Positions 5,843-30,650 of a stretch of DNA of 64,000 nt are shown piece after piece. The position numbers and the translations under genes were made by a program. The first letter of the stretch is position 1. Each line of letters starts with the position of its first letter. A model generated the notes under the pieces. That model ran no database searches, was not told the origin of the DNA, and was given only the letters and a program-made list of their open reading frames with translations. Origin of the DNA: Deltaproteobacteria bacterium (GTDB taxonomy: Bacteria; Myxococcota; Myxococcia; Myxococcales; SZAS-1); NCBI GenBank assembly GCA_018266075.1, contig JAFEBB010000022.1:1-64000 (forward strand), read 5' to 3'.

Positions 5843-5941
5843 ATGAACCTCTACTTCGCCAAGGGCGCCTGCTCGCTGTCGCCGCACATCGTGCTCCACG
5901 AGCTCGGGCTGCCGTTCCAGGCCATCCGCATCGGCCTCTAA
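5843..5941 (+). pseudogene. Glutathione S-transferase, N-terminal fragment (gene split by an insert)
   Basis: An SD (CCGGAGA) precedes the ATG at 5843. The first 30 codons match a bacterial GstA-type thioredoxin-fold N-terminus, including [20 protein letters not shown], in which the conserved Cys10/Ser region binds glutathione. After CGC ATC the frame runs into foreign sequence and stops at TAA 5939-5941. The rest of the gene resumes in the same phase at 8482. Joining the parts at the shared CCGCATCG gives a continuous 201-residue protein, the usual GstA length. Confidence 0.85.
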
Positions 5942-5954
5942 TTTCTACTTTTGA

Positions 5955-6982
5955 GGCGCCGGCTTTGCCCCCAAGGCATCGCCGGAAATCGTTCGATCGG
6001 TCATCCGCACTGACGGCGGCGCAGCAGTCCAAGAGAGTGGCGATACCCTCGCCGCAGTGGACGATTCGCAGGTTGTAGTTTCTGCAACTTTTGATGAACT
6101 CGGGCTCAAGGATCCAGCCGGTCTTGGCAGATTCCTATTCAGGATTGACTACTCAGCGAACTGTGGAGCGGAAGGATTCCCAACTTCAACTCCATCCAAT
6201 TCGCGCTCTGACTATGCGGACGCAAGAACGGGGTTCGCACCGGGCATTATCATCGCGAAGACTTCCGCGCCGAATGTTGTCGCCGCCCAAGTTGGGACCC
6301 CTTTGCTCGTTACAATTGATGGCACAGACGTATCGGGCTTCCAGGTCCCAAGGGGCATGAGCTACGCCGACGCCTTTATCGCTCTCCTAAGGAATCCTGC
6401 CGTCCAAACAGCGATTCCTGACCCAGTCAATTACCCAGCGAGTGGCAGTCAGGCCGAGGACGCGTGCGATCACGCGATTCGCAACGCTGGTGTCTACGAG
6501 ACCGGGACACCCAGCTTTGCGCAATGGGCGCTAGACGGAATTAAGGCACCGAAGCCGGTGCCATCCAACGCCGGTTCGGCGCGATTGCCTTCGGCGCGCC
6601 CAATGGTTCGAACCCCCCACGAGTGTTCATCGGTACATACCTGAATGGTTCTGTGCTTTCGGTCAACCAGGATGGGTCTGCGCTGACCTTCAACCTGGTA
6701 AATATCGACGCTCAAGACATGAACTCAATTGTGCTTGATTCTCAGCATAACTTCATCGCAGCGTCGTCCAGCACGGGGCTGATTGCGATCCTCGACGCCG
6801 AGAGCGGTACATTCCTCCGGAAGATTCAGGATTCTCAGTTTCCGACAGTGGAACTTGCCACAGCTCGGGTTTCTCCCGACGGAAGCACGATTCTAGTCCC
6901 GGACCAGGGCTGTATTGAGGAGGATCCAAATAGCGGCGCGTGCACGACGCGCGACGGAATCTCGATCTTGAGCGTCCAATGA
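5955..6982 (+). pseudogene. Beta-propeller-like secreted protein, 5'-truncated and frameshifted
   Basis: The first frame is open from 5955, just inside the insert edge, to 6644 (a GTG at 6057 is the first usable start). It encodes about 230 residues with no recognised domain. A second frame, open from 6545 to 6982, reads RFGAIAFGAPNGSNPPRV before VFIGTYLNGSVLSVNQDG, showing that coding shifts frame between about 6545 and 6600. The second part (DSQHNFIAASSSTGLIAILD, ARVSPDGSTILVPD) resembles YVTN/YncE-type propeller blades. The N-terminus and any signal peptide appear lost at the insertion boundary. The stop overlaps the next gene (ATGA). Confidence 0.6.
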
Positions 6983-7584
6983 AGACTTATGCGTGGCGCC
7001 TGAATGTGAAAGTTATCGCCGCCTTGTCTGTATGCTTCCTGGGAGGCTGCAGCGGCAGTTCGTCAGGGTCATCCGATGCTGGGGTCGACGCAGGGAGCCA
7101 AGGGCCTTCGGCAATCGGGATTTGGCACGAAATCGACGGCGGCGCGTATCCGATGGGTGTGGTGATTTATTCCTACCCAGCGGATGGCGGCCTTGGCTGG
7201 GATCCGTGGGGACTGACGCTCGAGCGCGCGGCGATTCACTTTCAACCGGGCGCCTGTTCGAACTACGTCACTCTCGCCGACGGTGGACTTGCCCTTGCGC
7301 CCGACGCCGGGGTTGGCCAGCGCTACGTAACCCTTAGTCGGAGCGTGGAGCTTAACTGGGCAATCGATAACCAGCCGGCCCTAGCTCAGTCGATAAGTCA
7401 GGGTATCGATACTCGCGACAGTACGAATGATCAAATTTCTACAGACTTTTCGCTTGCTGGCACCCTTGCAACTGGCTCGCTTACGGTCAACTTGGTGGTC
7501 ACGTATCGGAGCATGGACTCCGGCGCCGTAATAGACTCAGAGTCGCGGAACGCGGTCCTCTTCAGAGCAACAGGATGTCCCTGA
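6979..7584 (+). CDS. Putative lipoprotein of the insert
   Basis: 201 residues. The ATG at 6979 overlaps the preceding stop (ATGA). The signal peptide ends in the lipobox FLGGC, with Cys24 as the lipid attachment site, followed by a short Ser/Gly linker and an Asp-Ala-Gly segment. The body holds repeated 'DGG' turns (EIDGGAYP, YPADGGLGWD, LADGGLAL) and a C-terminal beta-rich part (FSLAGTLATGSLTVNLVVTY). No family is recognised. Codon use is less GC-biased than outside the insert. It overlaps the next gene by 10 bases, so the two are probably cotranslated. Confidence 0.75.
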   Translation: MKTYAWRLNVKVIAALSVCFLGGCSGSSSGSSDAGVDAGSQGPSAIGIWHEIDGGAYPMGVVIYSYPADGGLGWDPWGLTLERAAIHFQPGACSNYVTLADGGLALAPDAGVGQRYVTLSRSVELNWAIDNQPALAQSISQGIDTRDSTNDQISTDFSLAGTLATGSLTVNLVVTYRSMDSGAVIDSESRNAVLFRATGCP

Positions 7585-8054
7585 CACAACAGACCACCGG
7601 CTTGCTCAGGATGCCCCGGGGCTTCGTGGCCGCGGGTCTGTTGCTAGTCGAGATCTGGAGCTGCAATCCGTTTTCAGAGACCCATCAGCGATTCGCACTC
7701 CTGTCCGACGGCGGATGTGGCTGGTTCTCGAACAACGAAACGGAACCGAACTCCGCGTGCAGTCCAGCCATCGGTTGCGGCGACGTGGCGTGCTCGAGCG
7801 ACAGCGAGTGCACGGGGCGCGCCACGTGTGAAGAGCTGATGCACTGCCGTTGTGCGGCGGCGACGCGCTGCACGAATGGGCTCTGCGCTTTGGACCAAAT
7901 CGCCGGAAGTGACGCCGGCGTACCGACCAGCTGCAGCTCCGACTCGGATTGTGCTGCAGGCTGGAGCTGCGACATCGACCGGTGTGTCGTCCATATTGGA
8001 GCGATGTGCCCGTCAGATGTTGCCGCGCTTTGCGGTAGGCCGGACGGCGGTTGA
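7575..8054 (+). CDS. Cys-rich secreted or lipoprotein-like protein of the insert
   Basis: 159 residues from an ATG at 7575, overlapping the previous gene. A hydrophobic segment (GFVAAGLLLVEIWSC) precedes Cys30, a possible but poor lipobox; an in-frame ATG at 7611 would give a cleaner signal peptide. The mature part has about 20 Cys in knob-like repeats (CGDVACSSDSECTGRATC, CSSDSDCAAGWSCDIDRC), as in myxobacterial 'SDxDC' surface proteins. It is likely extracytoplasmic and disulfide-bonded. It is followed directly by repeat copy A2. Confidence 0.7.
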   Translation: MSLTQQTTGLLRMPRGFVAAGLLLVEIWSCNPFSETHQRFALLSDGGCGWFSNNETEPNSACSPAIGCGDVACSSDSECTGRATCEELMHCRCAAATRCTNGLCALDQIAGSDAGVPTSCSSDSDCAAGWSCDIDRCVVHIGAMCPSDVAALCGRPDGG

Positions 8055-8075
8055 GGGCGGCGAGGGTCGTCGGCG

Positions 8076-8133
8076 GCCCCCTCTCCCAAAGGGGACGGTT
8101 CACAGCTCGTCTCACGCGGGGAAGAGGACTCTG
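8076..8133 (+). repeat. Dispersed repeat family A, copy A2 (inside the insert)
   Basis: The segment CCCAAAGGGGACGGTTCACA then GCTCGTCTCACGCGGGGAAG aligns with copy A8 (30588-30650) and with the reverse complement of A3 (23566-23625). Its presence shows that the insert carries a repeat that is also resident elsewhere in this genome. Confidence 0.65.
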
Positions 8134-8233
8134 AATTCAGTGTGGGTGATCGCGACGCAGGCGTACGCCTTCACTCCTCGCGAGCCCCGAAAGTTGGTTG
8201 AATCACGTTGCCGATGCGCACCGGGGATTCCCG

Positions 8234-8474
8234 ATGACAGCCAGTGTTCGGGTGGGGTTGGGCGCGATGGCGCTCGGACTCCTCATCGCTGGAATGCTCG
8301 GCGCCTGCGCGCGCCGGCTGGGCGCTCACCGAGGTCGACAAGGACGTCGCGCGATACCACCTCCACGACGCCAACGCCTGTGTCCGGGCGGGCTAAGCCT
8401 ACCTGACCGGGCAAGGCGCGAAGAAGGATCCCATCTGGGCTGTGCCGATCTTCTCCCACGGATGCGCGCTCTCT
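8234..8474 (+). pseudogene. Sel1-repeat lipoprotein fragment
   Basis: The ATG at 8234 starts a lipoprotein signal peptide (AMALGLLIAGMLGAC). The coding then shifts frame near 8310. The new frame reads WALTEVDKDVARYHLHDANA, then CVRAG, a TAA stop, AYLTGQGAKKDPIWAVP and IFSHGCAL. This is the pattern of a Sel1/TPR-like repeat (xxCxxAGxxYxxGxGVxKDxxxAxxxFxxxC). It is broken by a frameshift and a stop, and cut off at the right edge of the insert next to the resumed transferase gene. Confidence 0.65.
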
Positions 8475-8481
8475 CCAGCGC

Positions 8482-9003
8482 CGCATCGACGGCAAGACCC
8501 ACAAGACCGAGAGCGGCGCCGACTACTACGCGGTCAATCCCAAGGGGCAGGTGCCCGCGCTGCAGCTCGAGGACGCGCAGGTGCTCACCGAGGGCGCGGT
8601 GATCGTGCAGTACCTGGCCGACTTGAAGCCGGAGGCCAAGCTGGCGCCGGCGAACGGCACCTGGGAGCGGTACCGGCTGCAGGAGTGGCTGAACTTCGTG
8701 GCCACCGAGCTGCACAAGGGCTTCAGCCCGCTCTTCAACCCCAAGTTCACCGGGGAGCTCCGGCAAGCGGCGATGGACCGTCTGGCCCAGCGGCTCGACC
8801 ACGTGGAGGCCGCGCTCTCCAAGAGCCCGTTCCTCATGGGCCAAGGCTTCTCCGTGGCCGACGCGTACCTCTTCACCATCCTCACCTGGTCCAAGCGCGG
8901 GGAGCTCGACCTCTCGCGCTGGCCGGCGATCACCGCGTTCGTGGCTTCGATGCGGGCGCGTCCGTCGGTGCAGGCCGCGATGAAGGCCGAGGGGCTGAGC
9001 TGA
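8482..9003 (+). pseudogene. Glutathione S-transferase, main C-terminal fragment
   Basis: From CGC ATC GAC at 8482 the frame encodes the remaining 171 residues of a GstA-like protein. It includes the cis-Pro motif NPKGQVPAL, the TEGAVIVQYLADL helix of the thioredoxin domain, and the all-helical C-terminal domain ending in RPSVQAAMKAEGLS. In-frame GTGs at 8551 and 8581 could start shorter products, but these would lack the glutathione-binding N-terminus. The missing 30 residues are at 5843-5932. It is convergent with the FG-GAP gene ending at 9043. Confidence 0.8.
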
Positions 9004-9042: not shown

Positions 9043-11324
9043 TCACGGCCCCGCATCTGGCCAGCAGAGGTCGCCTACCACCACGACCTGGTTCGTGTCG
9101 TTGCTGGTCACGAACCCCCATCCGCCGCCGGCGCCGAGGCGGCCCGCCACCAGGTGGCCCTGGGCGCGTCCTGAAACGGGAGTGCGGGCGACCGCGCCGC
9201 CGTCGAGCGTCCCTGCGGGCAGAAGTGCCAAATTGGCCCCGACGATGGCGCCAATCTCCAATCGCCCATCGCTAGCGAGGTCGACAAGCGCGGGCTCCAT
9301 GGCGCCCATGGGCGCCGTGCTCGCCAGCACGAATCCACCGTCTCCTTGCGAGAGCAGGATGCGCAGCCCATCGGTGATCAGATCCGCCTTGCCGTCGCCG
9401 TCGTAGTCCCCGGCGACGAGGTGCTCGTGGTTGAAGAGCGCCGTCTGGGTCGCTTCGGAATAACCGCCGTCCGCGAGGCCCCACCACAGCGAACACGGCG
9501 AGCCACACGTCAGCAGATCCTCGACGCCGTCACCGTCGAAGTCGGCGTGGGCGAGGCGATCGAAGCTGGGACCGAAGCCGCCATCGAGCCACAGCAGCGT
9601 CCTCGAAGCCACGCCCCCATCTCCCGCGAAGAGCTGGAGCACGCCATCGAGGGTGAGGACGTCGAGGGCGTCGCGTCCGGTGCCATCCGTTGCCGGCGCG
9701 AACGCACGAACGGCGACCGGCCCCACGACGCCAACGTCGACGAAGCTTCCGTCGCCGGCTCCGTGCGCGAAGAACAGGCCGCTCGGCGTGGTGTGGATCA
9801 TATCTGCGCGGCCGTCTCCATCCAGGTCGAGGAATTGCCTCACGTCCTTCACGCCCGCCGCGGACACGAGCGGTTGAGGGGGAGCGAAGGCGCCCGTGGG
9901 GAGCGCCTCGAACCAGGAGGCGCCGCCGTCGGTGCACCAGGCCAGGATGTCGTTGACGCCATCGCCGTCGACGTCGGCGAGCGCCAGGTCCGGCGTCACG
10001 CGAAACCCGGCGTCGCCGAGCAGCTCTGCGGCCTGGAGCCGGCCGGTGCCGTCGTTGCGGATGACCCGGCTCCCCATCACGAGATCCGGAGCCCCGTCGC
10101 CGTCCACGTCGGCGACCTGGGCTCCCAAGTCGAAGGTGGTGGAGTTCCCCAGGCCGCAGTCGTACCGCTGGACCACGTCGAACGTCCCGGCAGGGCCTCG
10201 TTTGGCGATTTCGCACTCGTATCCAGACGAGAGCCTCGTTGTGCTCACCAGCTCTGGCGTGCCGTCTCCATCGAGATCCGTGGCTGCCGCCGCGAAAACG
10301 GTGGAGAGGCCGCCAATGCGCCCGGAGACACTGAAGCCACCGTCGCCGAGGCCAAGCATCACCTCACTGTCCGCAATCAGGTCCGCACGCCCATCACCAT
10401 CGAGATCTGCGATGGCCTTGGGCGCTCCGTAGACGCCGGCCTTGGTCACGGGCTCGAGGTGGTCGCAGTGCCACCGCGTGAACCACATCCCGGACCGGTT
10501 GAGGAGGACGATCTCGGGCGAGCCGTCGCCGTCGATGTCGGTCAAGAACAGGCGCATCTCCCAGAAGTCATCGAAGTGGCCGCCGTCGACGATCGATCGC
10601 GGGCCGACGCCGCCGTCCTCCCAGAGCGCCCACACGCCCAGGTGGTTCGCTTCGTCCGAGGCGATGAAGGACGCCCTCCCGTTGCCATCGAGATCCGCGG
10701 TGATCCCGGTCCAGGTGCCTGCGTCGGGGACCAGGTGCCCATCGAAGCCGCCGTCCGCGAGCTGCAGCAAGAAGAGGAGGGGCCCATATCCGCTGCCCAC
10801 GACGTCCAGCCGACCATCGCCGTCGAGGTCGCCGACCGCCAGCGCTGCCAGGCCCGCGGCGGTCGAGAGCACGCGCGGCGCGCCGAACGCACCACCGCCA
10901 AGCCCGGGCCTCACATAGAGGCCTGCGTCGCCGATGGCGATGAGCTCGGGAACTCGATCGCCATCGAGGTCGACGAAGACCGGCGCAGGCGTCTCGGGCA
11001 AACCCAGGTCGGGCAGCTCGGTGCCGCGCATGGCCGGCGAGCACGTGCGCACCGGCGTTCGGGGGGGAACCCCGCGTCCCAGGTGGGCCCAGGCGCGCAG
11101 ACGATTGGGCCCGCATCCACTGCTCCGGCGTCGGCGCCGCCATCCGAAGCGGCGCCGCCATCCAGAGCGGGACCAGCGTCCCGAGGCGTCCCGGCATCGG
11201 CAGGGCTCCCCGCGTCCGCGAGTCCGGCGTCAGCGCCCGAGCTCTGCGTCGTGGTCCGGAGACACGCGGTCGCCGCGACCAACATGCCCAGCGCGGCCAG
11301 CCAGCGATTCGCGATCAACGCCAT
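9043..11324 (-). CDS. FG-GAP/VCBS repeat lipoprotein, frameshifted at a G7 tract
   Basis: The ATG at 11324 begins a lipoprotein signal peptide (WLAALGMLVAATAC, Cys21) and an Asp/Ala/Gly linker up to PTWDAGFPP. The frame then changes, and about 670 residues of FG-GAP beta-propeller repeats follow down to 9043 (first in-frame start GTG 11052). At least ten Ca-binding loops of the type DLDGDGRADLI, DVDGDGVNDIL and DYDGDGKADLI are visible. The shift falls at a run of seven G at 11061-11067 (C7 on the coding strand). One base more or less would join the parts into a single lipoprotein of about 760 residues. The gene may be phase-variable, a pseudogene or a sequencing error. A surface adhesion role is inferred. 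Confidence 0.8.
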
Positions 11325-23565: not shown

Positions 23566-23625
23566 CTCCCTTCCCCGCGGGAGACGGGCTGCGAAGCGTC
23601 CCCTTGGGGAGAAGGCCGGGGATGG
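23566..23625 (-). repeat. Dispersed repeat family A, copy A3 (inverted)
   Basis: The reverse complement reads CCATCCCCGGCCTTCTCCCC, AAGGGGACGCTTCGCAGCCC, GTCTCCCGCGGGGAAGGGAG, nearly identical to A8 at 30588-30650. It lies between convergent genes (ends at 23498 and 23650). Confidence 0.7.
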
Positions 23626-30587: not shown

Positions 30588-30650
30588 CGCGAAGCCTTCT
30601 CCCCAAGGGGACGCTTCGCAGCCCGTCTCACGCGGGGAAGAAGAGTCGGG
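30588..30650 (+). repeat. Dispersed repeat family A, copy A8
   Basis: CGCGAAGCCTTCTCCCCAAG, then GGGACGCTTCGCAGCCCGTC, TCACGCGGGGAAGAAGAG. It lies between the divergent genes at 30549 and 30736. This and A3 are the best-preserved pair of the family. Confidence 0.7.

Follow-up and report, generated by a model that had tools for sequence, protein, structure and literature searches.

Two kinds of described systems come closest to the locus analysed here. In bacterial NHEJ capture (Ku/LigD), the fragment gained has neither homology nor mobile machinery and its ends are unrelated to each other; heterologous DNA is reportedly acquired by NHEJ. Non-autonomous elements such as mobile insertion cassettes, MITEs and transporter IS carry passenger genes without a transposase, have the inverted ends of their parental elements and usually occur in several copies. 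Target duplications of 8 bp are made by IS66-, IS256-, ISL3- or IS1595-type enzymes. The 64-kb window (the whole stretch of DNA analysed here, on a contig of 103 kb) contains a glutathione S-transferase (GST) gene split by an insert that resembles both kinds in part. Like a fragment captured by NHEJ, the insert shows no homology or mobile machinery, has unrelated ends and lies in a genome with Ku genes; unlike a simple capture, it is flanked by an exact 8-bp duplication, which would require a staggered break that was filled in. With the non-autonomous elements it shares passenger genes, the absence of a transposase and the 8-bp duplication, but it has neither their inverted ends nor their several copies. 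A literature search combining 8-bp repeats, non-autonomous elements and Myxococcus found no paper.

The interrupted gene is gstA-like and lies on the plus strand, with its 5′ part at 5843-5933 and its 3′ part at 8489-9003. Of the 201 positions of the NCBIfam GstA model NF007831, the left piece matches 1-28 and the right piece the stretch that follows, 30-200. Read from 8482, the right piece alone scores 213.2 bits, above the curated cut-off of 198, and the left piece supplies the N-terminus that the right one does not have. Both are open and undecayed, with a GC3 of 1.0 (left) and 0.96 (right). The sequence CCGCATCG occurs at 5926-5933, as the end of the 5′ part, and again at 8481-8488 on the same strand and in the same codon phase. 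The direct repeat is exactly 8 bp long, since the two copies have different neighbours on either side (GGCCAT-CCGCATCG-GCCTCT versus CCAGCG-CCGCATCG-ACGGCA). Removing one copy together with 5934-8480, 2,555 bp in all, gives a frame of 201 codons (MNLYF...KAEGLS) without a stop, which bears out the preliminary description of this DNA on the repeat as well as on the restored GstA-like frame. Aligned with intact relatives of the order (e.g. L008, L012 and L017), the rejoined protein shows no gap at the seam; these relatives are distant homologues from other families of the order, and the empty site rests on them. Two scans of genome contigs for an empty site in close relatives found nothing. Elsewhere in the genome there is one GST-like match, a weak one (29%). 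Immediately beyond the 3′ part comes a large FG-GAP repeat lipoprotein-like gene (9043-11052), encoded on the minus strand.

At the insertion site, target codons were neither gained nor lost. When blunt insertions were simulated with random segments of the window, an overlap of at least 8 bp at the seam arose in 0.044% of cases. Because a chance overlap of 8 bases thus has a probability of about 4 in 10,000, we read the junctions as an insertion accompanied by an 8-bp duplication; a duplication due to chance is very unlikely.

The insert itself spans 2,547 bp (5934-8480) and is single-copy in the genome. The preliminary description called it less GC-rich than its surroundings, which holds above all up to position 8053 (55-64% versus 66-71% in the flanking genes); 8054-8480 has 63-68%, and the deficit lies mainly in the left three quarters. 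This low-GC stretch is the sole one of its kind within the window. GC3 of the first four genes of the insert is 0.58-0.74, and that of the upstream ABC transporter genes 0.97-0.99. The tetranucleotide correlation between insert and genome (r 0.04) is below that of all 300 random windows (mean 0.67). The composition of the insert is foreign.

Five genes or gene remnants, all on the plus strand, are carried by the insert. Gene A (5955-6644) is a 5′-truncated open frame without a signal peptide or family; it has no start, and an in-frame TGA stands immediately upstream at 5952. Gene B (6551-6982) resembles the end of a beta-propeller protein, with weak WD40-type matches only and no convincing start. 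Gene C (6979-7584) encodes a lipoprotein with the lipobox LGGC, and its ATG overlaps the stop of gene B (ATGA). Gene D (7575-8054), whose start overlaps the end of gene C, encodes a Cys-rich secreted or lipoprotein-like product with the TIGR04201 Myxo_Cys_RPT repeat. Gene E (8232-8480), a lipoprotein gene of the Sel1 type by a weak match (E 0.04), has decayed: it contains a frameshift as well as an internal TAA, and the right edge of the insert cuts it off. The insert thus begins and ends within broken genes, as had been noticed from the first: gene A is without its 5′ end, gene E without its 3′ end, and the two ends of the insert are unrelated to each other. The overlapping starts and stops of genes B, C and D are those of an ordinary operon fragment. 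Genes A to D form the last part of an operon, in which two truncated genes precede two lipoprotein-like genes with overlapping starts, and this truncated operon together with part of a decayed gene has the look of an arbitrary chromosomal fragment. Since gene E carries a stop and a frameshift and genes A and B are degraded, unlike the GST halves, the decay is probably older than the insertion. Decay before the move would speak against a maintained mobile cassette.

Between genes D and E the insert carries a short dispersed repeat (8082-8125, plus strand) of about 45 nt with a 34-base core, GGGGACGCTTCGCAGCCCGTCTCACGCGGGGAAG. Genome-wide, eight copies differ from this core by no more than 3 mismatches; this contig has three (8082-8125, 23570-23613 and 30596-30641), and the copy in the insert is the most divergent of the eight. 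Its ends, CTTCTCCCC...GGGGAAG, could form a hairpin, and it is possibly a REP-like element. When the whole insert was searched against 195 genomes of the phylum, with two candidates scored per genome, a match across 8082-8125 appeared in this genome only. The TIGR04201 Cys-rich repeat of gene D is matched 13 times in this genome and not once in 14 control genomes. A partial relative of gene C is found on another contig of the same genome, C1 (C1:182203-182349; 43% identity over about 50 residues). This fragment (L047:8213-8350, equal to G000:C1:182203-182349) sits beside a lipoprotein gene in an island of 59% GC, and it is another remnant of gene C's lipoprotein family. A survey of 1.66 Mb of the genome for low-GC islands included the island that holds it, C1:181951-184300; among the part of the islands that was inspected, none is a copy of the insert.

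We propose that the GST gene was disrupted by a captured chromosomal fragment, joined into a staggered break by Ku-dependent end joining, and we give this reading a probability of a little under one half (about 0.48). A double-strand break in the GST gene would have left 8-nt overhangs; these would have been filled in as a stray fragment was joined, giving the 8-bp direct repeats. The fragment captured would be the 2,547 bp that comprise the final portion of a lipoprotein operon of low GC and part of a decayed Sel1-type gene. The likely joining route is Ku-dependent end joining, which is plausible because the genome encodes two Ku proteins, on contigs C7 and C96; the fragment ends, unrelated and situated within genes, are as expected of such joining. 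Two observations count against this reading. A clean 8-bp duplication is also made by many DDE transposases, and no donor locus was found for an insert whose tetranucleotide signature is foreign.

In an unlikely rival reading, the insert was transposed with an 8-bp target duplication by a DDE transposase that worked in trans or on cryptic ends. The length of the duplication, exactly 8 bp, and the unchanged target codons agree with it. Beyond the duplication, the insert shows none of the marks of a DDE element. Neither Pfam, NCBIfam nor PHROGs revealed a transposase, and the insert has no PHROG match of note. Terminal inverted repeats are likewise absent: the end-to-end score of 7 is equalled or beaten by 51% of random internal segment pairs, and the hairpins at the tips (5 bp on the left, GCCTC...GAGGC, and 4 bp on the right) are too short to count. 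The preliminary description was therefore right on both the missing transposase and the missing inverted ends. The 166-contig draft of its own genome contains no second copy of the whole insert, nor of either end. The recurrence of the same 2.5 kb at other sites, which the preliminary description had raised, also failed to appear in the 195 phylum genomes, among which the family has no other genome (two candidates were scored per genome, so that weak copies could escape). Plasmids gave no match to the insert DNA, plasmids and phages none to gene A, and viral contigs none to genes A and C. A transposase supplied in trans would leave the absence of related ends unexplained, and the truncated genes at both ends of the insert also speak against transposition. 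Two broader assignments were rejected on the same searches: a mobile element family, as neither the whole insert nor either end has a second copy, and a phage or plasmid origin, as plasmids, phages and viral contigs gave no match and no PHROG stood out.

Close to its left tip, at 5939-5953, the insert reads TAATTTCTACTTTTG, which is reminiscent of a portion of Cas12a CRISPR repeats. The stem lacks its second half and no RNA family matches there, and the likeness is probably due to chance. Around the insert, matches to RNA families are at chance level only.

Rather improbable, in our view, is illegitimate recombination at an 8-bp microhomology, by template switching or integration of a small circle, in which one copy of CCGCATCG would have come with the donor DNA. 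The same repeat would result, and CCGCATCG is not a rare sequence (0.095 per kb per strand). Such an origin calls for two events at one target position, or for a circle that carried the same 8-mer by coincidence, and no donor is seen.

Doubtful to a greater degree is an assembly artefact, in which a piece from a different organism or strain was wrongly assembled into the GST gene. The foreign tetranucleotide signature, the 166 contigs of the draft and the fact that the insert is seen nowhere else are all compatible with such an error. Against it, k-mer assembly or gap filling does not yield a pair of in-register junctions that share an exact 8-bp duplication, the insert has the genome's own short repeat, another contig carries a relative of gene C, and the contamination estimate is 0.73%. 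That the insert is a low-copy mobile unit of a kind not yet described, with lipoprotein genes, no inverted ends, an 8-bp duplication and an enzyme not yet recognised, is very improbable.

The preliminary description had left three readings side by side: a mobile unit, a captured fragment or a joining error. The captured fragment is now favoured by the single-copy state, the absence of inverted ends, the broken and decayed genes of the insert and the undecayed GST halves. A mobile family finds no support in the ends of the insert or in its distribution across its own genome and the 195 phylum genomes, and a joining error, still conceivable, is hard to reconcile with two precise junctions. In the most likely account, captured DNA disrupted the gene in a one-off event, and no new kind of mobile element is involved.

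As for the origin of the captured fragment, neither the draft genome nor the 195-genome phylum set, which has no genome of the same family, contained a donor locus. The fragment probably stems from a donor of this lineage and from a region of unusual composition, because the insert has a dispersed repeat that has so far turned up in this genome alone, as well as the myxobacterial Cys-rich repeat, and because the relative of gene C sits inside another low-GC island, on C1. The most likely source is a close relative, or else a region of the same lineage that was lost or is unsampled. The foreign tetranucleotide signature also allows for an unrelated donor, in which case the dispersed repeat would have arrived later.

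Wider consequences would follow only if the 2.5-kb unit turns up at another site. If end joining is the true route, the fill-in duplication of a captured fragment can pass for the footprint of a transposon. For the organism itself, the locus is a clean example of a myxobacterium that gains oddly composed lipoprotein genes and loses a metabolic gene in one event.
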